Below are positions 5,401-20,889 of a DNA stretch of 24,203 nucleotides, one piece after another. Made by a program: the position numbers and the translations under genes. Source of the DNA: a virus; IMG/VR virus record IMGVR_UViG_3300037247_001715, positions 1-24,203 of that record; one strand, given 5' to 3'. The notes under the pieces are model-generated. The model was given only the letters and a program-made list of their open reading frames with translations, ran no database searches and was not told the DNA's origin. The number at the start of each line of letters is the position of its first letter. The first letter of the stretch is position 1.

Positions 5401-6291
5401 TTCGGCGGCAGGCCAGCCGCTGTCACTGACTGCCAGGGTTTTCGCAGTCTGCAGAATGTAGACATAGTTCCTCTTCGGGTGCTGTGCGTCAACGCCTTGC
5501 GTTAAGGGAATGCTGATGATCGGCGTGCAGTCGAGAACGGTATAGCCGTCGGAGAACACCATCGTCAGGTCGCCGCCGCCCGCCTGCTCCAGCGTCATTT
5601 TGACGGCGCCGCCGTCTTCTATCACCAGGGCGTCGAAGCTCTCCAGAAAGATATCCCGGAGGAACTTGGCGAGATCGTCCAGTTGGGCGTGGGTGTTCGT
5701 ACCGGCCCCGCTGAGATTGTCATGGACAACAACATCAGCGCCTCCAGCTTCATGGAGTGTTGCGTGGATCGCCGGTAGGTGCGCCGGAATCTCGGCGACA
5801 GGGCTATCCGGTTCGGCAACGGACACCTCTGCGGATCGAAACACCGAGTTTCCGATCCACCGGCCAACGGCCGCGTTATATTCGAGCACCACCATGTCGC
5901 CATCACGCAGGGTGACGTCGCCGCCGGGCACAACGAATTGACCGGACAGTTCGTCCTCGACGACCTCGCCTCCGTCAACCAGCATAACAACGCGGTCGCC
6001 GTCCGACGCACGGACAATGACAATCTGCCCGTCCACGGCACCGGTGATCCGTTCGAGCGATCCGGTAGCCGCCTCGGCTTCGTTGTCCAACGTGTACAGC
6101 AGTCGATCCGGTTCAATGGCTACCTGCTTTTCAACACTGGACACGAGCAATACTGCGGCGTCAGGCTCTTCCGCGAGGCGCTGATTAAGCCACTCGCGGG
6201 AAAACCCGGTAGGCGCAATATGGTCGTACCCAATGCGCCCTTCGCCGACAATCAGCGGCCCAGGTAAAGTGCCGATGCTCGTGTATCTCAT
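2449..6291 (-). CDS. Large tail fibre protein, 1280 aa
   Basis: A long fibre made of linked modules. Residues 65-148 form a small beta domain with LERITGAVDGQIVIVRASDG. Residues 171-207 carry the fibre pattern HLPAIHATLHEAGGADVVVH and THAQLDDLAKFL. Around 338-385 is GHLTHIAERLRRGGAIWLDG followed by VSIAVGLVSQAHPH. Further on there are Gly-rich shaft-like repeats with DGAKLDGIEAMANVTDAANV. A late part contains TRITSGGQVGINCDP, as in many fibre receptor regions. The C-terminus ends with GELYVDTNDDNTVKRGV and has no obvious endosialidase-type chaperone domain. Fibres of this kind bind host receptors. The start overlaps the previous stop (ATGA). Confidence 0.82.
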   Translation of the reverse strand: MRYTSIGTLPGPLIVGEGRIGYDHIAPTGFSREWLNQRLAEEPDAAVLLVSSVEKQVAIEPDRLLYTLDNEAEAATGSLERITGAVDGQIVIVRASDGDRVVMLVDGGEVVEDELSGQFVVPGGDVTLRDGDMVVLEYNAAVGRWIGNSVFRSAEVSVAEPDSPVAEIPAHLPAIHATLHEAGGADVVVHDNLSGAGTNTHAQLDDLAKFLRDIFLESFDALVIEDGGAVKMTLEQAGGGDLTMVFSDGYTVLDCTPIISIPLTQGVDAQHPKRNYVYILQTAKTLAVSDSGWPAAEHIKVGFFYIQTAVEVAARGALVNQNINDHAASTSGAGVGQGHLTHIAERLRRGGAIWLDGCEGVATQDGNDLWVSIAVGLVSQAHPHTFAALDSDTAGAGDVILVLNDPDGAYRIINSLNAITKLSDGTDIGNNKYIKLDLWAVSNKSGTYSPMMLDTPSGQYNTASDAEIDVEGHADFSIPVEFALESTTGFLVASFVCKHTATAMEIVTTIDQRGRTPATAGGAGTGGGDVTAATVIVDNAITVGDGGAKGIQGRTASIADNGVMSVPGIGDGGLTNYDLKVGNPSDYGMIQFGNALLGRTSFNVGAIDLDGTVLIRNIGGPVTSEIEFMFAESVGATCRFALPKSAVGNATYNPRSMLLAGPAPADTDFVKVSYWQTQGIFHNLACDTAASGSDLGVQNDLEVEGIIYADNIKESTPGANITLGNDLAMAGNDILYVDVIRDILGNEQLAFGFAVAAVNYITVFNSQTGLPPSLVAQGDNADIDLALISKGTGKVKSLDDFDVTGDITLTGTVDGRDIVTDGAKLDGIEAMANVTDAANVAAAGAIMDGDITGDGLMIRTGAGNYTNRSIAVANAKLTVSNADGAAGNPTLGFGSVALADLSDGGTIVTADANLTDDALVRGKGGALGAQTSPVSLTDAGVMGGITQLNVDNLRLDGNTISGTAGAGLILIPPTTWGFLNYVTGTAAADIAAWSIYNYGWNASMVDTTTSLTFLQAYGAGGIGVAPTAISGALRIGTETNWAGGIGTRDSYMAFYTTLDGIPAEKTRITSGGQVGINCDPVTLPGATGNEFLYIHREGSSVNMTLQVASSGSPGGHRPLFSFRRSRGTAAARVKVEDNDALASFISSGYDGAAWGSNAEISFRVDGATSSGVVPTGIQFRTGTTGRTTRLTVQSDGDILVDGGTSVFVRDSALGFNSSVDGQLDLFADGEVEITTALIDLNAASIFAASLISGTDQADAGAAAGELYVDTNDDNTVKRGV

Positions 6292-6986
6292 TTCAAGGGC
6301 TTCGGGCTCAAAAGTGTATGGTTAGCAAGGTCCGACAGGGGAACCGATTGCCCTGTCGTGTCGGCATCCGCATAAACAATCAATACCTGTAGTTGCCCCT
6401 TCATATCCGCAGGCCACTCAGAAAATGGCGCTGGCCCGGCACGAAAGAACCCAGCAACAATGGGCCGCACATTGGTCTGGACTACGCCAATATTCGCATA
6501 CCGTTCAGGAATCTGTCCGGTAGGATGGTTGAGGAGCAATTCGCTTCCAAGCCAAGGAAGGGCGGACGCATCGCGACTACTCCCCGCGTAGTACCATCTC
6601 TGGTTGACCTCCGTATCCGCAGATGTGCCGACACCAAAGTGGATAGCGAACTCCAGATCATAATTGAACACCACGTCCACGTTGACGGTGACATCCAGCA
6701 CGACAAACGGGGGGACCGGATTGCCCAAGAGGACTGGGCCGCTTCGCATCTGGAGACCTCCGGAGACGGCCCACCCTTCGTCAAAGCGAACAAACCCCTG
6801 CAGTAGCTTCACGGGCGTGGCTTCAACGAGCTGAAGAAGCACATCGGTAACTGGAGGCACACTTGGCGTCCCTTCACCGATGCCGATGGCACGCTCCGCA
6901 GTCACTATTCGGCCGTAAAGCTGGCGCAGTTGGATATCCAGGTGCGGAGAACCGGTTGCCGGGAATGTTGGCGCTGTAGCAGCCAT
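6288..6986 (-). CDS. Hypothetical virion protein, 232 aa (paralog of previous gene)
   Basis: A 232-residue relative of the preceding protein. It starts with MAATAPTFPATGSPHLDIQL and RQLYGRIVTAERAI, and has FVRFDEGWAVSGGLQMRSGP near residue 70-90. The C-terminal half is beta-rich (VVLDVTVNVDVVFNYDLEF, then QLQVLIVYADADTTGQSV). The ATG overlaps the previous TAA as TAATG. Its own TGA overlaps the tail-fibre ATG (ATGA). The tight coupling to the fibre gene suggests a fibre-attachment or baseplate-like role, which is inference. Confidence 0.7.
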   Translation of the reverse strand: MAATAPTFPATGSPHLDIQLRQLYGRIVTAERAIGIGEGTPSVPPVTDVLLQLVEATPVKLLQGFVRFDEGWAVSGGLQMRSGPVLLGNPVPPFVVLDVTVNVDVVFNYDLEFAIHFGVGTSADTEVNQRWYYAGSSRDASALPWLGSELLLNHPTGQIPERYANIGVVQTNVRPIVAGFFRAGPAPFSEWPADMKGQLQVLIVYADADTTGQSVPLSDLANHTLLSPKPLK

Positions 6987-7777
6987 TATCGCGGACCAAC
7001 CTTCACAGGCTTGACCGCAATAAGCGGCCTCTCCCCGACAGGAGTGTCAGGCGTAATGCGGTTCCCTTCAAGGGCGTCACACCAGACGGGTACGACTGTT
7101 ACTTCGCCGCGTGCTTCCTCAGACCATTCTAGACCATTGGCCACTTGGGCCTGCCCGGCTGCCGGCTCAGCAAAGACAAAACCCACGCAAACTGGTAGCG
7201 TAGGAAGGTCGGGGACATTTCTTCTTAAAGACTTACGGCCGGTTGGCTGATTCCGCTCCACGTTGTACCAATACCGAATAACGTCGGAGGGGAAACGGAC
7301 TCTCGTGTCGATCGGCAGCGGCGCACCGACGTACTGAGCAGCCATGTTTTCCTTGGCGATATTTCCCCAGTAATCCGCATAGTCTGGTGGCGGATCCTCT
7401 CCCGGCAGAATGTCGGCAAACATCAAACGACCAAACGGGTTTGCAGGATCGCCAGCCGCTCTCGCGAACACTTCACTAATGTACGCCGTGACACGTAGCA
7501 GCAATGATGCAGGGAACAGCACCAATACGTACCGTGCCGGGCCTCGGCGTAACTTGGGATGCGCATAGACCCACCCCTCGTCAAATCTGACCGAAATAAA
7601 TGAGCAATACACAGCCCTGACGGATGCAATCCGGGCGCTGGCCGGACCGGGTGCCGATGACGGCGCACTTGTGCGAAGTATCTGTTCGATCGTTCCAATC
7701 CGGCGGTAGAGTTCCCGAATCTCAAGATCGACATAGGGACTCTTGGCAACTGGAAACGGTGGAGCTACTGTCGGCAT
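6986..7777 (-). CDS. Hypothetical virion protein, 263 aa (paralog of next gene)
   Basis: A 263-residue protein. It begins with MPTVAPPFPVAKSPYVDLEI, continues with RELYRRIGTIEQIL and later has SVRFDEGWVYAHPKLRRGPA. The same landmarks appear in the next gene: a PxFPxxxSP N-terminus, LYxRIxTxE, and VRFDEGW followed by LRxGP. A short helix near the start suggests oligomerisation; the rest is beta-rich. The last base of the stop is shared with the next start (TAATG). It is probably a structural component near the fibre. I know of no named family. Confidence 0.7.
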   Translation of the reverse strand: MPTVAPPFPVAKSPYVDLEIRELYRRIGTIEQILRTSAPSSAPGPASARIASVRAVYCSFISVRFDEGWVYAHPKLRRGPARYVLVLFPASLLLRVTAYISEVFARAAGDPANPFGRLMFADILPGEDPPPDYADYWGNIAKENMAAQYVGAPLPIDTRVRFPSDVIRYWYNVERNQPTGRKSLRRNVPDLPTLPVCVGFVFAEPAAGQAQVANGLEWSEEARGEVTVVPVWCDALEGNRITPDTPVGERPLIAVKPVKVGPR

Positions 7778-7781
7778 CGCC

Positions 7782-8018
7782 CTACATCACCCCAATGACC
7801 ATAAAGGGATTAGCGGCCAAGGCGTTCGGCTTATCTATAGTGCGCGGCGGGCCGATGGACGGCAGGATGACCGGCGACAAGACGACGGGCACTTCCCTGA
7901 CCCATTCGGGACGCACGGTGGCCATAATCGTCGAGACCTTCTGGGTAGTGAACAGCCACGGAGTGACCGTTCCAACCCATGGCATCGTTGCGGGCGCAAC
8001 AGTAACGCTGATCGACAC
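7782..8018 (-). CDS. Small hypothetical protein, 78 aa, GTG start
   Basis: A 78-residue, hydrophobic, Val/Pro/Thr-rich protein with beta character (TMPWVGTVTPWLFTTQKVST, then VREVPVVLSPVILPSIGPP). I place the start at the GTG at 8018 because GAGGA from the end of copy 3 lies about six bases upstream. That repeats the coupling pattern of the three preceding genes. The frame is open further upstream, but that part overlaps copy 3 and looks like a shadow of it. There is no clear membrane helix, because prolines interrupt the hydrophobic stretches. A small tail accessory protein is possible; the function is unknown. Confidence 0.65.
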   Translation of the reverse strand: MSISVTVAPATMPWVGTVTPWLFTTQKVSTIMATVRPEWVREVPVVLSPVILPSIGPPRTIDKPNALAANPFMVIGVM

Positions 8019-8020
8019 CG

Positions 8021-8449
8021 CTATTCCTCGATGTACACCGTGAACGTAACCGGCACGAAGTTGCCGCTCCTGTAGCGCAGGGCGACCCGCTCGGCACCCT
8101 TCACGATGATGCGGAACGGCGGTCGCCACGGGTAAGTGCCTTGCTGATGAATCGGGAACGCGATCAGCGTGGCAACGAACGTCGGTTCTGTCGTGAAGTC
8201 CTTTGCCAGCGTAGCCAGCTTGGTCTCGTCGATCCCGCGGTCCTGGTATTGGGGGGTCGCCGCGCTGCTCGTCCCCGCCGTATTCTGGATACACCAATCA
8301 AACAGCACGGCCGGGCTTGCCGGGGTACTTCCCTGAAGGCCGATCTCGGCGCCGATGATCTGCACGCGATGGTTCGTCGGCGATAGCACCTGGAACAGCG
8401 TTCTCGGGTTGTCGTTCGGCGTGAGTGTGTTGAAGACGTAGTATTTCAT
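8021..8449 (-). CDS. Tandem virion protein family, copy 3
   Basis: A 142-residue near relative of copy 2, equal in length. Conserved blocks include NPRTLFQVL, TPQYQDRGI, ETKLATL, HQQGTYPWRP, ERVALRYRS and the VTFTVYIEE end. Differences are concentrated in positions 24-46 and 90-100, which could be the exposed or partner-binding part. The ATG at 8449 uses GAGGAG from the end of copy 2 as its ribosome binding site. Its own last codons are GAG GAA TAG and are followed closely by the GTG start of the next gene. Confidence 0.8.
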   Translation of the reverse strand: MKYYVFNTLTPNDNPRTLFQVLSPTNHRVQIIGAEIGLQGSTPASPAVLFDWCIQNTAGTSSAATPQYQDRGIDETKLATLAKDFTTEPTFVATLIAFPIHQQGTYPWRPPFRIIVKGAERVALRYRSGNFVPVTFTVYIEE

Positions 8450-8451
8450 TA

Positions 8452-8880
8452 TTACTCCTCGATGAAGAGAGTGAAGGTTACGGCAACGAAGGTGGCACTT
8501 CTGTATCGGAGCCCGACTCGCTCACCACCGCCAACGACGATCGGGAACGCGGGTCGCCAGAGATACGTGCCCTGTTGGTGAATCGTGAAATAGATGAGGA
8601 TGCTGCTGGCAGTCGGCTCTGCGGTGAAATCCTTTTGGAGCGTGGCGAGCTTGGTTTCAGCGATTCCCCGATCTTGATACTGGGGAGTCAGTGCCGACGC
8701 AGTGCCCGCCGTTGTCTGCAAGAGCCAATCAAAGAGCACTGGCGCAGTCGAGGGGTCGGCGCCGCCGAGGCCGAAGTCGCCACCGTATATCGTGATACGC
8801 TGATTCGCGGGGGCCAGCACTTGAAAGAGCGTGCGTGGGTTCGCATCCGGCGTATGCAGGTTGTAGGCGTAGTATCGCAT
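8452..8880 (-). CDS. Tandem virion protein family, copy 2
   Basis: A 142-residue protein. Residues 1-24 include MRYYAYNLHTPDANPRTLFQ. Later parts are VLFDWLLQTTAGTASALTPQ, YQDRGIAETKLATLQKDFT, IHQQGTYLWRP, GGERVGLRYRS and VTFTLFIEE. It aligns without gaps over its whole length to copy 3, with about 65% identical residues by my own count. The ATG at 8880 follows GGAGGAGTAACCC, where the GAG GAG TAA belongs to the end of copy 1. Coupled translation is therefore likely. The role is unknown; a virion subunit is inferred. Confidence 0.8.
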   Translation of the reverse strand: MRYYAYNLHTPDANPRTLFQVLAPANQRITIYGGDFGLGGADPSTAPVLFDWLLQTTAGTASALTPQYQDRGIAETKLATLQKDFTAEPTASSILIYFTIHQQGTYLWRPAFPIVVGGGERVGLRYRSATFVAVTFTLFIEE

Positions 8881-8884
8881 CGGG

Positions 8885-9349
8885 TTACTCCTCCATGTAA
8901 AGCGTGACGGTCACAGGGATGGTGTTGGAACCCGTGTGCCCCAGAAGGCGCAGGCCGACACGTTCGCCGCCCAATACGATTATCGGAAACGGCAGCGTCC
9001 AAGGCATGTTCGCTTGACGGTGCAATGAGACAGACGCCAGTACAGCTCCGGCAGTCGGCTCCGTTGCTGGCGTTGCATCCGTTTGGTATTCAAGGAAACT
9101 AGCCTGGATCGCTTCATCGTATCCACGATCCTTCTTCTGCGGAGTGATCGCAGTTCCATTCGCTCCGGCATTGGTCTGCACAAGCCACTGTAGCGTGAAC
9201 CCCACAGTTGCCGGGCTGTCGCCTTGGAACCCAACTTCCATACCGAGAACCACCGCACGATGATCCGACGCGGCAGCAATTTGAACGAGGGTCTGAGGAT
9301 CAGCCCTTGCGGGCGTGTGTGTCGTTGCAACGTAGTAGTGCAAACGCAT
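8885..9349 (-). CDS. Tandem virion protein family, copy 1
   Basis: A 154-residue protein and the most divergent of three tandem relatives. Shared features are a Tyr-rich start (RLHYYVATTHTPARADPQTL), a motif ITPQKKDRGYDEA, a short LHRQANMPWTLPFPIIV stretch, then GGERVGLR and a beta-strand end VTVTLYMEE. The ATG at 9349 has TGGAG seven bases upstream. Its last codons, GAG GAG TAA, double as the ribosome binding site of the next copy. The compact beta-rich make-up suggests a small surface or tail protein. I do not know the family by name. Confidence 0.75.
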   Translation of the reverse strand: MRLHYYVATTHTPARADPQTLVQIAAASDHRAVVLGMEVGFQGDSPATVGFTLQWLVQTNAGANGTAITPQKKDRGYDEAIQASFLEYQTDATPATEPTAGAVLASVSLHRQANMPWTLPFPIIVLGGERVGLRLLGHTGSNTIPVTVTLYMEE

Positions 9350-9369: not shown

Positions 9370-11553
9370 TTAGCGCCGACCAACGGGTTCGGCGTCAATT
9401 GCAAATCCAGTGAAAGGCCCGATGCACTTTCGCGTAAGGTCCGCAGAGAAAGCGAGCTTGATCCGCGTTCCTCGCTTGTTGATTGCGAACTTCCCGTAGG
9501 GCTTCCCGCTCGCGGTCGCACCAGGGAAGCGCACCCCTCGGCGTACCCGGTAATCATCCTGAAACACCAGCGTCTTGATGGTTCGGCCGCGCTCCTGTTC
9601 CACTTCGATGGCCAAGTAGAACGTCTCGCTCGCACCCGGCCCGTAAAACAACGTAACGGTGTGAACGCGCTTCGGGCGATCCAGTAAGCCGAGCGACATC
9701 CACGGCGTTTCATATTCCCACGCGATGTATTCCTCGTCTCCGGCAAGCGTGTGATCCTTACCACGCTCCGCTGCCAGCATCTCAAGGAGCCGAGCCGACG
9801 CCTCGCCCGTCCCGGCAAGTATCAGCGGATCGGCACTGAGCACTGGACATAGCGCAGCAGGCACGTCGGCAATCAGGTTCACTGCGGATGGGAACTGATG
9901 GATCGTCCAGTTGCCGACGGCGGGATCGCCCACGCCCTGGCGGTAGTCGAAGCAAAAGACCTTGTCGTCTACCTGGGCGTATTGGATCCAAAGCAGCCCG
10001 GTCCGACGGTCGTTAGCCATGCTGCACTTGTCTCGCGAAGCTTCCGGCACAAGGGCGTGCGTCGCCTTGATCGGATCGGAGACCTTCCTGGCCCGCAAGC
10101 CGTCGAATCCATAGATGCCGTCCAGCGCGTTGTAGTACAAGATGCCGTCGCACTCCTTGAGCGCCAGGCTCCCACCTTTGTTGAAACAACCCGTGTCGGC
10201 CTGGACTCGATATTTCGAGAACAGCGGTTGCGGCGCAGCTTGACCAAGGGCTACCGTGTCGTTGGTGTGCTGAGTCAGCGTCCCGGCAATCACATAGATC
10301 GCGGTTTCCTTGAAGACCAGAAGTCGACCCTGGTATACCGCCAAGCCGGTGATAGGTTCACTACCTTCATCGTCGAATGTGATAAGGGCGTCACCAGCTA
10401 CGTGCTCGCCGTTGAAGTCCGCAGAATAGAACAGAGCACCATAGGTATCCGGGTCGATGGATGCATAACAGACTTTGTTGTCGAAGACTACGATCGCGTT
10501 TGATTTCGGTGGCAGACCATTCCGGGTTGGAGCGTATGGGCCAAATCCCCGGGCACTTAGAATCTCATCGGTGCCTGTCACCAATGGAGGGATTTTTACT
10601 TCTCGACCGTCAAGAATGTAGTTGTTAGTGTAAGGTGGCTGGGCGTTAGGGGTGAACGGTATCTCCATCGCCAACCGAAAGGCGACCTCACCTCCAACCA
10701 CCTCCGGGTCTTCGTCGTCCATCAGGGTGATTCTAAGGTAGACACGCAGTGTATCTATGCGGTTGCGTTCAGCGTCCGTGCGGCCGCCGTAACTAATTTC
10801 CAGTTCAACTATTTGGCCTGGACCTATAGTGTACGTAGGTGACAGATCAAGCGGCAGATCACGCAATACCCAGTTAACATTGGATTCCGTCTTGTATAGG
10901 CTATCGTAAAAGCTGAAGGCGAAGCCGTACTGCCCCGGCGGGAAAACCAGCGCATCCTCATCGCCTCCCGCCGAGTCTCTTACTGTAACACGAGCCAAGC
11001 CTGGAAGGTCAATCCCGCAATGGTAAAGCTCATTGCCCCCGCCAGCTATCGTAGCTGAAAGAGGATATGCCGTATCCCACAACACAACATTGGGACGTCG
11101 AACGAACTCGGAAAAACCGAAGAATGTTTTGCGCCCGAGATGCACAATGTCGCCACGTGTCCCGCGCGCAATAGGCGGGAGCTTGCCGACCTCCTCATCC
11201 GTTACGGGATCAGACGACTCTAGTTTGGTGATCCGCAGGGAGGACCCGTGCTGCAGTCCCCCTTGTAGACTTGCTACTATCAACAGGCGACTGACGGATT
11301 TCTGGCTCGCATCGTCCAAGTCAAGGTAAGCAGACGGAAGAGGCGCAATCGCTTCGATCCACGGCACCAACGCCGCATCCTCAATTGTCAAGACGTTTCG
11401 CAGACCCGGCCGGGCCTCAATCTGCCCGCGATTGAGCACGATGTTCTTCATCGTCTCGGCGTACTGCGGCGGCTGAATGTCGCCGGTCACACCTTCATTG
11501 ACGCCGAGAAACGGCCCCATCACCCGCAATACGTTTTCAAGAGTTCTAGGCAC
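9370..11553 (-). CDS. Beta-propeller-like neck or tail-stabilisation protein
   Basis: About 727 residues. The first part, VMGPFLGVNEGV followed by YAETMKNIVLNRGQIEARPG, is typical of large podovirus neck proteins in the P22 gp10 region. Later there are repeated strand units ending in short aromatic turns, for example ITGLAVYQGRLLVFKETAIY, then KECDGILYYNALDGIYGFDG and RRTGLLWIQYAQVDDKVFCF. These suggest a beta-propeller. I chose the GTG at 11553 because GGAG lies six bases upstream. A GTG at 11571 and an ATG at 11520 are other possible starts. It lies after the adaptors and before the fibre-related genes. Its role would be closing the neck and holding the fibres. Confidence 0.72.
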   Translation of the reverse strand: MPRTLENVLRVMGPFLGVNEGVTGDIQPPQYAETMKNIVLNRGQIEARPGLRNVLTIEDAALVPWIEAIAPLPSAYLDLDDASQKSVSRLLIVASLQGGLQHGSSLRITKLESSDPVTDEEVGKLPPIARGTRGDIVHLGRKTFFGFSEFVRRPNVVLWDTAYPLSATIAGGGNELYHCGIDLPGLARVTVRDSAGGDEDALVFPPGQYGFAFSFYDSLYKTESNVNWVLRDLPLDLSPTYTIGPGQIVELEISYGGRTDAERNRIDTLRVYLRITLMDDEDPEVVGGEVAFRLAMEIPFTPNAQPPYTNNYILDGREVKIPPLVTGTDEILSARGFGPYAPTRNGLPPKSNAIVVFDNKVCYASIDPDTYGALFYSADFNGEHVAGDALITFDDEGSEPITGLAVYQGRLLVFKETAIYVIAGTLTQHTNDTVALGQAAPQPLFSKYRVQADTGCFNKGGSLALKECDGILYYNALDGIYGFDGLRARKVSDPIKATHALVPEASRDKCSMANDRRTGLLWIQYAQVDDKVFCFDYRQGVGDPAVGNWTIHQFPSAVNLIADVPAALCPVLSADPLILAGTGEASARLLEMLAAERGKDHTLAGDEEYIAWEYETPWMSLGLLDRPKRVHTVTLFYGPGASETFYLAIEVEQERGRTIKTLVFQDDYRVRRGVRFPGATASGKPYGKFAINKRGTRIKLAFSADLTRKCIGPFTGFAIDAEPVGRR

Positions 11554-12250
11554 GCATCGCTCCAACGTCACGAACCCACGGTCCGGTGCGGTTCCAACTC
11601 GCGAGGTCCAGGTTCATCATCTGAACCAGCTCAGCGTAGTTCCGATCCCAGACACGCGAATCGGCTGCGACTTGATCAAGCACCATCTTGGTAGCCCGCA
11701 CTGCGATGATCTCGTGGTGTTGTTCGGGAATCTCTCTGGGAACATCATCATCGTCGCTCAGTAGGGTGATCTGAGCACTGTAGTACACGTCGATGGTCAT
11801 TGAGGACGGGGGGTCGTAGACGAAGCCCATGTGCCAGACGCCGGCCGAGTTGCGAACGAAGTAGATGATCGGCCTGACGAACCCCCCGACACGATCCGGC
11901 CAGTACGTACCGGTTCCGTATCTGTTGCGGTCACGGAAGTCCACCACTGCGCAGGTAATTGGCCGTCCACCCCAATTCTGGTCCGTCCGCTCCGCAAATA
12001 GAATCTTGCGAATAAACGTCGTAGGAGGTCCCGATGCGCTAGTGGCATTTAGATAGTAGACCTCCGTGCCCGAGGACACACTTGTCGTGATCGGGGTGGC
12101 CGTCATATTGTAGAGGTCGGCGGCCTGTTCAACGATGTTGGTGACGTGTTCGACGGCCCGGTTTATCAGCCGGTCAAGCCGTTGCGGCGCCATGCCGCCC
12201 CGTGGCCCAGCGTTCTCGAGGACTAAAAGTCGAAGCGTTTTTAGGTCCAT
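11546..12250 (-). CDS. Head-tail adaptor-like protein 2 (related to previous gene)
   Basis: A 234-residue protein with the same layout as the preceding one. An N-terminal helix (DLKTLRLLVLENAG) is followed by RLDRLINRAVEHVTNIVEQA, which parallels RLDRLIDRAYDKLINAAIAV there. A beta-rich middle includes VGGFVRPIIYFVRN and SMTIDVYYSAQITLLSDD. A C-terminal helical part (HEIIAVRATKMVLDQVAADS) follows. Two related adaptors in a row suggest that they form two stacked rings or one mixed ring between portal and neck. The start is the ATG at 12250. The end overlaps the following gene start by a few bases. Confidence 0.68.
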   Translation of the reverse strand: MDLKTLRLLVLENAGPRGGMAPQRLDRLINRAVEHVTNIVEQAADLYNMTATPITTSVSSGTEVYYLNATSASGPPTTFIRKILFAERTDQNWGGRPITCAVVDFRDRNRYGTGTYWPDRVGGFVRPIIYFVRNSAGVWHMGFVYDPPSSMTIDVYYSAQITLLSDDDDVPREIPEQHHEIIAVRATKMVLDQVAADSRVWDRNYAELVQMMNLDLASWNRTGPWVRDVGAMRA

Positions 12251-15803: not shown

Positions 15804-18086
15804 CTATTTGGGAACGAAAAGCCCGCTACGTTGGCGGGTGAAACCTTGCGGTGGTGGCCGGCTGCTAGCTCGGCGACCCATTTCGGCGGGAGCGCCACTG
15901 GGACCTCCTGGTTTCTGAGGCGTCGGGCGTTGCCCTCCCCCTTGCTGTCCAGGGGACCCCTGACCGGCTTCCATCGGCGACGGCAGACCCGCTTCGGCGC
16001 TCAGGTCGCGGATGAGCACCATTGCCTGCACTCGCTGGCGCACTGTTTTTCGGATTCGTCTTTCCTCGTGATTCCGCTTATGGGTAAGGAAAACCCTTTC
16101 GAGTCCAGGATCGAAGCGTAGCTTGCGTCGGTAAGCGGCGCCCTTTTGGGCCTTGGTGTGCTCCGTCAAGTGGACCGTGTCGTCATCGCCGTCGGATACC
16201 GGAGGCAACGCGCCTTCCAACATCTCCTGATTTTCGAGCGAAGCGTTCGAGCGATCCTGTTGGGATTCGTCGACCTCTTGGGTAACGCCCTGCCCAAGCC
16301 ACCGAAACACCGTCTCCCGGTCCCCCGGAGTTTGGACACTCAGCCAACCCCGCGCTGTGAGCATGTCGATAAGTTCAATGGTCGTTTGCCTGTCGAGGGC
16401 ATTGCCCAAGTCGCATTCGACGTTGAACTCCGCCGCCGGCAAATCTTGACCGGACCAGCGCAACACTTCCGGCTCGCTGTTTTCTCCGATGATCGTGATC
16501 GTTCGCTGCTCGTCTGTGAACTGCCGAAGGATCTTCATCCATTGGCGGCAGACGTGCCCCAGGTCATCCCGGAGCATACGCATCATCGGCGCGTTCAACC
16601 TTGCGTCGGCTTCTTGGAGGGCAACGGCGTGACGACCGCTGCGCACGTTTCCTTTTTGCTTCCCGTAACTCGGGGCATGGTTTCGCGACACGTCCTCGAA
16701 ATCACTACGAAGACTCTGCTCCCAATAAGGCATATATGCCGGTAGGGGCTCGGGAACCCACGGCTTGATTTTGTTTAGACTGACCCACGTAGGATTCACT
16801 TCCACAAGCTCATGGGGAGCCGTAAAGGCTTTCTTGTGCAGCCCGTGCCCTTTCTCGACGAGGATTCGCGGCTCGACCGTGGCGGCCTTGTGCTCGGCAA
16901 CCTGCGAGCGGGCCACGTTGATCTCCACCTGAAGCGGCATAAGGTCTTGAACCGTGGAGGGCGGCCAGAAGCTGCGCGGGCTCGGCAGCTCCCGAATCAT
17001 CACGATCGGTATCTCGCCGTGGTCGTAAGGGTTACGACCCTTCTTGAGTATGATGTTCTGGGCTACGACGGCGTGGAATCCCTTGGGGCACGCCCGGCTC
17101 ACCGGTCTCCAGAGTTCGTAGACTCGAACGTGATCCGGGCTACCGACCGCCACACCCAAGTCGCCGCCTGTGCCGTAGCCTCCAAGCGTTTCGATACCCT
17201 GATCCAGAGAGCCGATGTGGTCCGTGCCGCTACTGGGGTTGATCGTGTCAGCCTTTTTCCCGTAGCGCTCCCTGATTTCCTCCATGTGCCGATACTGGCG
17301 CGACATCAGCCACGGGGCCTTTTCAATCGAATGGGCGTGTTGCGGCGGGATGATGTCGAAGCCGGTGAGCAGGGTGCAATCGAGGTCTCCGTCGTGGACC
17401 TCGAAGCGGTCTTCATTGTCAAGGGCCACTTCGCCCGGCTCTATGCCGAGAAGCGAACCGATCATGTTGGAGAACCGCTGGCGGGTGCTTGTTCCGTTAC
17501 CGCCGTAGAGTTGGGCTGTCTCAATTTCGTCAGACTCGAACACGTCAGTCGGCCCGACTTTGAACTCGTCGCCGAGCAGGGGATCCCAGGTCGACTTGAA
17601 GAACGCACACCCCGTGCAGAACATCAGCCAGAGCGAGTCGACGAACAATTTATCGCCAACGAGCTTTTTCCAGTAGTAGCGGGCCAGCTTGTCCTGTACG
17701 CGCGCCGACGCAATGTCCACGTCATCCGCAGTCGCCGGGCTGACACGAAACGACACGGGGCGAGCGGTGACTAGACTGACCCAATTGAGAATCGCCGGTT
17801 TGAGCCGATTCACGAACAAGGCGATGCGGCCCGCCTGGACATCGTAGGAGTCAGCCAGGTCGCGCCGCATGTTGTCCCAGCGCTTCAACTGGTCGCCCGC
17901 CGCCCAAGCGAGCTGCAATGAAGCCCGCTTCACCCAACGGTGGTGATATTGGTCGTGCCGAACGACCTGGGAGCGGATGAACCCCAAAATGTCACGCTCC
18001 GAGGGATTCCGCCAGTTGATACGATGACTGGCTCCGCCTACAGCTACGGACTGCCGCCCCGTCCGGGATGGTTCGAGAATCGCCAT
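15804..18086 (-). CDS. Portal protein (P22-like size and motifs)
   Basis: A 760-residue protein. A dodecameric portal forms the vertex through which the terminase pumps DNA and to which the neck attaches. P22 portal is of similar length. Portal-like features include an N-terminal helical region with NRLKPAILNWVSLVTARP (residues 93-110). They also include a middle stretch with GEIPIVMIRELPSPRSFWPP followed by VQDLMPLQVEINVARSQVAE, the typical pattern where the portal clip and stem region begins. The last 60-70 residues are rich in Gly, Gln, Pro and Ser and are probably disordered. The ATG at 18086 lacks a strong ribosome binding site. The order TerL, small proteins, portal, scaffold, coat supports the call. 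Confidence 0.88.
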   Translation of the reverse strand: MAILEPSRTGRQSVAVGGASHRINWRNPSERDILGFIRSQVVRHDQYHHRWVKRASLQLAWAAGDQLKRWDNMRRDLADSYDVQAGRIALFVNRLKPAILNWVSLVTARPVSFRVSPATADDVDIASARVQDKLARYYWKKLVGDKLFVDSLWLMFCTGCAFFKSTWDPLLGDEFKVGPTDVFESDEIETAQLYGGNGTSTRQRFSNMIGSLLGIEPGEVALDNEDRFEVHDGDLDCTLLTGFDIIPPQHAHSIEKAPWLMSRQYRHMEEIRERYGKKADTINPSSGTDHIGSLDQGIETLGGYGTGGDLGVAVGSPDHVRVYELWRPVSRACPKGFHAVVAQNIILKKGRNPYDHGEIPIVMIRELPSPRSFWPPSTVQDLMPLQVEINVARSQVAEHKAATVEPRILVEKGHGLHKKAFTAPHELVEVNPTWVSLNKIKPWVPEPLPAYMPYWEQSLRSDFEDVSRNHAPSYGKQKGNVRSGRHAVALQEADARLNAPMMRMLRDDLGHVCRQWMKILRQFTDEQRTITIIGENSEPEVLRWSGQDLPAAEFNVECDLGNALDRQTTIELIDMLTARGWLSVQTPGDRETVFRWLGQGVTQEVDESQQDRSNASLENQEMLEGALPPVSDGDDDTVHLTEHTKAQKGAAYRRKLRFDPGLERVFLTHKRNHEERRIRKTVRQRVQAMVLIRDLSAEAGLPSPMEAGQGSPGQQGGGQRPTPQKPGGPSGAPAEMGRRASSRPPPQGFTRQRSGLFVPK

Positions 18087-19962: not shown

Positions 19963-20439
19963 TCAGAGCCCGGCTTTCCATCGCCAGCGGCGATACCATG
20001 TGTTCAACCGCACATTGCGATCCCCTGCCCCGTCGTGAGCGATATTGAATCCCAATCCATGTCCACATGAAGGCAACGCACTATCTCCCGGAACGGCAGG
20101 GTACATTACCGTCTGATACCAGATGGCCGGGGACTCCCCAATGTCCGCCGCTGCGATTGTAATCTGTTGCAAGGGAGCATCGTCTACGCTTGCGTCATTT
20201 CCATCGAACGACCGGTACACAGTGATCACGGCACCGGTGTCAACGGTTCCTCCCGTTGGCTTCAGCTCAAAGGTGACTTGTACACCAGCAAACGGCCCAG
20301 CTTGCCTGAGGGGCAACCGAGCCGGATTGTATACCGGCGTCGCAAGTTCGATAATGCCGGCACCGATACCAGGCGCCGCTACAAGGGTCGAGCCACCAAG
20401 AAACTGGATTTGGCTCTCGAATACCGGCGCCCCCAGCAC
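19963..20439 (-). CDS. Beta-rich hypothetical virion protein B (paralog of previous gene)
   Basis: A 158-residue protein clearly related to the preceding one. PFAGVQVTFELKPTGG and VITVYRSFDG line up with the equivalent parts there. The ITIAAADIG segment, a tyrosine/proline stretch (VMYPAVPGDS) and the final YRRWRWKAGL correspond as well. The N-terminus is different and more Gly/Pro-rich. The start is a GTG at 20439, with GGAG eight bases upstream. The preceding gene ends only a few bases before, so the two are likely translated together. The pair appears to be an old tandem duplication, as only the core motifs are conserved. Function is unknown, and a virion surface or decoration role is inference. 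Confidence 0.75.
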   Translation of the reverse strand: MLGAPVFESQIQFLGGSTLVAAPGIGAGIIELATPVYNPARLPLRQAGPFAGVQVTFELKPTGGTVDTGAVITVYRSFDGNDASVDDAPLQQITIAAADIGESPAIWYQTVMYPAVPGDSALPSCGHGLGFNIAHDGAGDRNVRLNTWYRRWRWKAGL

Positions 20440-20442
20440 AGC

Positions 20443-20889
20443 TTAGACTCCAAACAAAAAGCGCCAGCGCCGGATCAGCACTGTTCCCTTGAGCGTCCGA
20501 TCTCCGCCGTTGCGCGACAGGTTGAACCGGGCCGCGTACCCGAGCGTCGATTCGCCGGAATCGGCCGGCAGCGCCGGGAATATCTCCGTCTGGACCCACG
20601 TGTTCGCCGCACCGATGTCACCGGCAGCGATCGCAATCGTTTCGATCTCCTGGTCGTCAATGACCGTGCCGTCAAACGACCGGTACACCAGAATGTCGCA
20701 TCCGCTGTCGCTGGCGCCACCGGACGACGTGATCGCAAACTGCACCAGCACCCCGGCAAACGGTTGGTTGTCCTCGTCTGACGGCATCCCCACCTTGATT
20801 ACCGACGTGTTCACCCCTCCATCGGGGACCGTGGCATCATCCAGGATCGTGATCGGCTGAGGTTCAAACTTCGGTGCTATCAGACCCAT
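20443..20889 (-). CDS. Beta-rich hypothetical virion protein A (paralog of next gene)
   Basis: A 148-residue protein rich in beta-type alternation, Gly, Asp and Ser. Its core, PFAGVLVQFAITSSGG (43-58) followed by DILVYRSFDG (65-74), recurs in the next gene, as do an IAIAAGDIG segment and an Arg/Trp-rich end (IRRWRFLFGV). It has no signal peptide or membrane segment. It starts at an ATG at 20889 with GGAG eight bases upstream; that site overlaps the TerL stop. Small beta-rich proteins of this kind in phage clusters are often capsid decoration or spike subunits, but I recognise no named family. A structural role is inferred from composition, duplication and neighbours. Its place between TerL and portal is unusual for a tail component. 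Confidence 0.75.
   Translation of the reverse strand: MGLIAPKFEPQPITILDDATVPDGGVNTSVIKVGMPSDEDNQPFAGVLVQFAITSSGGASDSGCDILVYRSFDGTVIDDQEIETIAIAAGDIGAANTWVQTEIFPALPADSGESTLGYAARFNLSRNGGDRTLKGTVLIRRWRFLFGV

Follow-up and report, generated by a model that had tools for sequence, protein, structure and literature searches.

A tandem array of small phage genes whose terminal glutamate codons carry the proposed ribosome-binding site of the next gene

Three adjacent, related genes in a virus genome record form a tandem array in which the last codons of one gene hold the best Shine-Dalgarno (SD) match for the start of the next, and our analysis confirms that this array and the position of its SD matches are real. 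We regard it as probable that the explanation as a whole is one of tight packing, in which each next SD would come to lie within the last two codons of the preceding gene, the terminal codons would be doubly constrained, and the encoded proteins would be accessory virion subunits.

The window, i.e., the whole stretch of DNA that was analyzed, covers an IMG/VR virus record from end to end (24,203 bases); the record is possibly a fragment. The array forms part of a module of late genes, encoded on the minus strand, that comprises terminase, a P22-like portal, the major head protein, smaller genes, a gene for a 733-aa protein, and the array itself; 3' of the array lie genes for proteins of 78, 263, and 232 aa, followed by a gene for a protein of 1280 aa. 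The features of the array are as follows (L006, L007, and L009 are related contigs).

8885..9349, minus strand: copy 1, 154 aa, ending in ...LYMEE; groups with the first copies of L006, L007, and L009 (85/93)
8888..8893, minus strand: GAG GAG of copy 1, proposed SD of copy 2 (GGAGGA, -9.3 kcal/mol; stop-to-start distance 4 nt)
8452..8880, minus strand: copy 2, 142 aa, ending in ...LFIEE; AlphaFold2 jelly-roll model, mean pLDDT 92.9
8455..8460, minus strand: GAG GAG of copy 2, proposed SD of copy 3 (-8.4 kcal/mol; stop-to-start distance 2 nt)
8021..8449, minus strand: copy 3, 142 aa, ending in ...VYIEE; sister of copy 2 (96/87 without the outgroup, 93/90 with it)
8024..8029, minus strand: GAG GAA of copy 3, proposed SD of the 78-aa gene (-5.9 kcal/mol; GTG 2 nt past the stop)
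7782..8018, minus strand: 78-aa open reading frame with a GTG start; positional counterparts in L006 (ATG), L007, and L009 (both GTG), 20-26% identity

Copy 3 is 65% identical to copy 2 (E 1.8e-61) and copy 1 is 43% identical to it (E 1.4e-28), so that the three related neighbors of 154, 142, and 142 residues named in the original prediction are indeed there. Copies 1 and 2 end in GAG GAG TAA and copy 3 in GAG GAA TAG, the distances from stop to start being 4, 2, and 2 nt, respectively; the two Glu codons and the stop thus stand directly 5' of the next start, including the GTG of the 78-residue gene, just as had been claimed. An artefact of open reading frame calling is ruled out, as the copies match each other and their relatives over nearly the full length and the same junctions are present in L006, L007, and L009. 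The small gene behind the array keeps its place in the relatives at a sequence identity of 20-26%, and by our gene calls it starts with GTG in three of the four genomes.

Relatives were obtained by a search of IMG/VR contigs with the capsid protein, which returned L005-L008 and L009. Two of these contigs (L005 and L008) stop before reaching the array, and the other three have the same gene order as the window, namely, a 733-aa-type gene, the copies, the small gene, and appendage-type genes. The copy number is three in the window, three in L006, two in L007, and two in L009, giving 10 copies in four genomes. A distant homologue is present as a single copy in MW202566 (profile E 2.4e-10), where it was matched by copies 2 and 3 and by L006 copy 3 in a search of a phage collection; copy 1 and the 733-aa protein had no match in that collection, and the MW202566 homologue used as a query matched only itself there. 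Query A1 found no relatives among viral contigs, two scans of genome contigs likewise found none, and further searches returned only contigs that were already known. In five whole records whose capsid proteins are distantly related, the best profile match among open reading frames of at least 50 codons had an E value of 0.37, which we take as chance. Relatives with a single copy and freely varying spacing had been named as evidence that would speak against the original prediction; the four genomes hold several copies each and only the distant homologue is single, and the spacing does vary. Every copy found, among the 10 copies and the relatives examined, has a close follower gene, so that the other kind of counterevidence named, an EE end kept with no gene behind it, did not occur in this set.

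A tree built from the 10 copies unites the first copies in one group (85/93) and pairs window copy 2 with copy 3 as its sister (96/87), and both groupings persist when the MW202566 homologue is added (86/93 and 93/90, respectively). These groupings point to an early duplication and to one or more that are specific to a lineage; the placement of the extra copy of L006 is not resolved.

The claim that the terminal codons serve as the ribosome-binding site of the next gene holds in the sense that the best SD match falls mostly inside these codons in 9 of the 10 copies, as judged by pairing with a canonical anti-SD of the 16S 3' tail, from which that of the host may differ. Every one of the 10 junctions has an SD of -5 kcal/mol or better (range, -5.9 to -11.1). 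The gaps are 4, 2, and 2 nt in the window, 10, 8, and 1 nt in L006, and 7 and 6 nt in both L007 and L009, all within a stop-to-start range of about -4 to +10 nt. The exception is L006 copy 1, in which the SD (AGGAGGUG) lies past the stop and the penultimate codon is TCT.

This arrangement is not special to the array. We compared it with 45 other tight junctions (gap of 0-10 nt) from seven genomes, 26 of which have an SD of -5 kcal/mol or better; 17 of these 26 strong SDs are mostly in upstream codons, and at gaps of 0-4 nt this holds for 17 of 17. Palleja et al. (2009; PMC2784483) describe the same on a genome-wide scale, with SDs in the end of the upstream coding region at gaps of 1-4 nt and rarer SDs that overlap the stop codon at gaps of 5-8 bp, and they cite Eyre-Walker (1996) for closely spaced, codirectional genes with an SD in the upstream end; SDs within upstream genes, together with coupling, are also treated by Huber et al. 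(2019, PMC6728339; 2023, PMC10666635). From these accounts and our comparison set we conclude that such junctions belong to a kind already described. The array resembles the gene pairs described by Palleja et al. in its gaps of 1-4 nt, its SDs in the last codons, its purine-rich coding ends, and its frequent TAA. It differs from them, as they are described there, in that the arrangement recurs along tandem paralogues and in relatives and in that 6 of its 10 gaps measure 6-10 nt, with the SD still mostly in codons in 5 of these 6. In those five copies (gaps of 6-8 nt) the SD lies 8-10 nt from the start, whereas outside the array, gaps of 5-10 nt come with nine SDs of -5 kcal/mol or better, not one of which is mostly in codons. 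The in-codon SDs at gaps of 6-8 nt hint that it is the protein that calls for the Glu codons and that their use as an SD is partly incidental.

Codon choice at the gene ends speaks to a role of the RNA. The original prediction had suggested comparing the third positions of the terminal GAG codons across homologous clusters, and these positions turned out more uniform than expected: 16 of the 17 terminal Glu codons of the 10 copies are GAG, with a P of about 0.003 under per-genome codon use, a value that, like the other p values given here, is optimistic, with only 4 genomes and 10 copies that are related by descent. By comparison, GAG accounts for 35 of the 52 internal Glu codons of the same genes (Fisher p = 0.024) and for 390 of the 650 Glu codons in background genes (p 0.0023). 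In the window alone, GAG is used at five of the six terminal Glu positions, the last codon of copy 3 being GAA. The third base of the penultimate codon is G in 9 of 10 copies versus 33% in the background (p 0.0003). When L009, a near orthologue of L007, is left out, the counts are 13/14 for GAG (P 0.008) and 7/8 for the third-base G (p 0.002), and when L006 copy 1 is left out, GAG stands at 15/16 (P 0.004).

The penultimate Glu is replaced by Ala in L007 copy 2 (GCG GAG) and by Thr in L009 copy 1 (ACG GAG), and GGAG is retained in both; the only penultimate codon that neither encodes Glu nor ends in G is the TCT of L006 copy 1, a single case and the one with its SD past the stop. Averaged over 56 conserved columns, among them the terminal ones, the most frequent codon accounts for a share of 0.57, and of the 15 two-fold columns only 3 reach 0.9, i.e., the 2 terminal Glu columns and 1 Tyr column. 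The Tyr column, an internal one, equals the terminal Glu columns in uniformity, and GAG makes up as many as 8 of 10 codons in columns of internal Glu. Shared ancestry alone is an unlikely source of the GAG codons at the gene ends, and the 16/17 GAG count together with the penultimate G in 9 of 10 copies makes an RNA-level constraint on the terminal codons likely. The suggestion that the EE end is kept partly by the need to initiate the next gene is thus supported for codon choice and the third base; it finds no support for the EE pair as such, of which only the last Glu is invariant and the penultimate residue is variable.

The AlphaFold2 model of copy 2 is all-beta (mean pLDDT 92.9), and we read the predicted fold as a single jelly roll. 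None of the three copies has a Pfam or PHROG family at E values up to 1, a comparison of copy 2 with PDB sequences gave one match at chance level (E 0.11), and no Rfam element was found in the window at gathering scores. Foldseek matched the model to 47 predicted viral proteins in BFVD at an E value of 0.001 or better, mostly unnamed or "uncharacterized," which, where an organism is given, come mainly from tailed phages and in five cases from giant viruses; at the same threshold, it found no match in the PDB. Among re-aligned PDB folds, endospore appendage subunits scored highest (Z 9.7 for 7a02 and 9.0), followed by plant virus capsids (Z 8.7, 8.2, and 8.1) and a fibre domain of phage 7-7-1 (9rkv, Z 8.1), and none of the re-aligned matches is decisive. 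The predicted fold also resembles that of phrog_5335, represented by a 191-aa protein of LIMEzero and a 174-aa protein of CVT22, at TMq values of 0.71 and 0.69 for BFVD models that are tied to these phrog_5335 genes by organism and length only. No relation of the array proteins to this family was found in sequence, with no PHROG match at E values up to 1 and an hhalign probability of 0.4% against a two-member alignment.

The locus lies in the late operon of a phage of the short-tailed type. Its portal is P22-like and scores above the Pfam cut-off, and the capsid protein, which is under the Pfam cut-off for SU10_MCP, is a major head protein by PHROGs. The 733-aa gene weakly matches (E 1.6e-5) a family whose description reads internal virion protein, and from this match and from its position we infer that it is of the tail "nozzle" type. 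The genes 3' of the array are probably tail-appendage genes. The window 263-aa and 232-aa proteins share an N-terminal motif of about PPF/PPY..SP..D..LR.LY.R (7706-7729 and 6915-6938, minus strand), which is also present in both L006 counterparts (11061-11084 and 11732-11755) and at the start of long fibre-type proteins in L007 (9204-9227) and L009 (16992-17015); one further window match to this short pattern, at 5540-5563, looks like chance. The motif is perhaps a common anchor of tail appendages. Gene position and the predicted fold suggest that the array proteins are accessory virion subunits, and we favor a tail-associated location because the array sits between the nozzle-type gene and the genes that share this fibre-type motif.

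How the ends of these genes came to look alike can be read in other ways. The C-terminal Glu might be kept for the protein alone, closing the last beta strand for structure or assembly, with the SD as a by-product of purine-rich codons. Much is consistent with this: the last Glu is found in 10 of 10 copies, including L006 copy 1, where it stands outside the SD; the MW202566 homologue also ends in a Glu, perhaps the aligned residue, with a weak SD of -2.4 kcal/mol; the last strand of the copy 2 model extends to residue 141; and the SD remains in codons even at gaps of 6-8 nt. A protein-level constraint on the last Glu is in fact likely too, because this residue is kept in every copy, also where the SD is past the stop. 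Such a constraint on its own, however, would leave unexplained the 16/17 GAG codons, the third-base G of the GCG and ACG penultimate codons, and, in the one case at hand, the occurrence of TCT only where the SD is elsewhere, and we consider it doubtful as the full account. We consider more probable the double constraint, in which the protein, whose last beta strand ends here, would probably be the main reason why the last Glu is kept, and ribosome binding would account for the use of GAG and for the third base of the penultimate codon. The downstream genes would then depend on ordinary SD-led initiation, perhaps aided by ribosomes that terminate a few nucleotides away. The stronger proposal of the original prediction, that translational coupling holds the subunits at equal ratios, seems to us quite improbable. 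Huber et al. (PMC10666635) take gaps of -8 to +10 nt, which they report to be enriched for subunits of complexes, as predictive of termination-reinitiation, and the array gaps of 1-10 nt fall in this range; the array also shares with such pairs (PMC6728339, PMC10666635) the short gap and the SD within the upstream gene, and in predicted RNA folding two start regions (copy 1 to copy 2 in the window and in L006) rank with the top 1-3% of 150 random sites in their degree of pairing. Yet the same account has coupling depend on short overlaps, with scanning of intergenic regions being rare, and no copy overlaps its follower; unlike the pairs described there, the array is without any stop/start overlap, and occlusion of the start is predicted at only 2 of 10 junctions, the other 8 not being unusually paired. 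SD energies (-5.9 to -11.1 kcal/mol) and start codons differ among the junctions, with GTG behind the array in three of four genomes, and copy number varies among the relatives (3, 3, 2, and 2). Coupling itself is compatible with our data; strict coupling and fixed ratios find no support in them.

As for the location in the virion, the array proteins might instead be cement or decoration proteins of the head, which we regard as possible but unlikely. The cement proteins of KHP40 (7dou; Z 7.7, rmsd 2.6, 101 aligned residues) and GP4 (8h89; Z 6.8, rmsd 3.2, 112 aligned residues) are among the re-aligned fold matches, at middling Z scores that are common among unrelated folds. Like the array proteins, those of KHP30/KHP40 and GP4 are small beta-sandwich phage proteins, the GP4 protein being described as Ig-like (PMC9698820), and the MW202566 homologue lies two genes behind a 364-aa gene that we take as the capsid gene (annotated as hypothetical). 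The similarity, however, amounts to Z scores of 6.8-7.7, comes without a sequence match or, from Foldseek, a PDB match at an E value of 0.001 or better, and is exceeded by that to 7a02, to the plant virus capsids at 8.2-8.7, and to 9rkv. The gene position differs as well, with the copies following the 733-aa-type gene in all four genomes.

Our observations lead us to speculate, tentatively, that the array propagates itself as a unit: with the ribosome site of the successor built into every copy, a tandem duplicate would be translated at once. If true, a virion protein would have its C-terminal residues shaped by what the next start requires of the RNA, and changes in copy number would be eased. 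Bearing on this idea are the sister relationship of window copies 2 and 3 and a small duplicate with the same end pattern in MW202566 (L021), where a small gene in tandem duplicate (58 and 53 aa, 16373-16713) lies directly behind the distant homologue; the last 49 residues of the two are identical, and both end in GAG GGA TAA AG ATG, where the last codons again hold the best SD match. Because this type of junction recurs in paralogues and in relatives, the needs of the protein end and those of the next ribosome site can be separated, and the array offers a compact natural case for doing so.

A second tandem pair of paralogues is located between the terminase and portal genes of the window (20443-20889 and 19963-20439, minus strand). 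The pair was suspected of belonging to the array family, but profile comparison showed no relation. The two proteins, of 148 and 158 aa, are 40% identical and predicted to be beta-rich at a middling model confidence (pLDDT 76), and two copies are also present in L005; here, too, the SD of the second gene lies within the last codons of the first.
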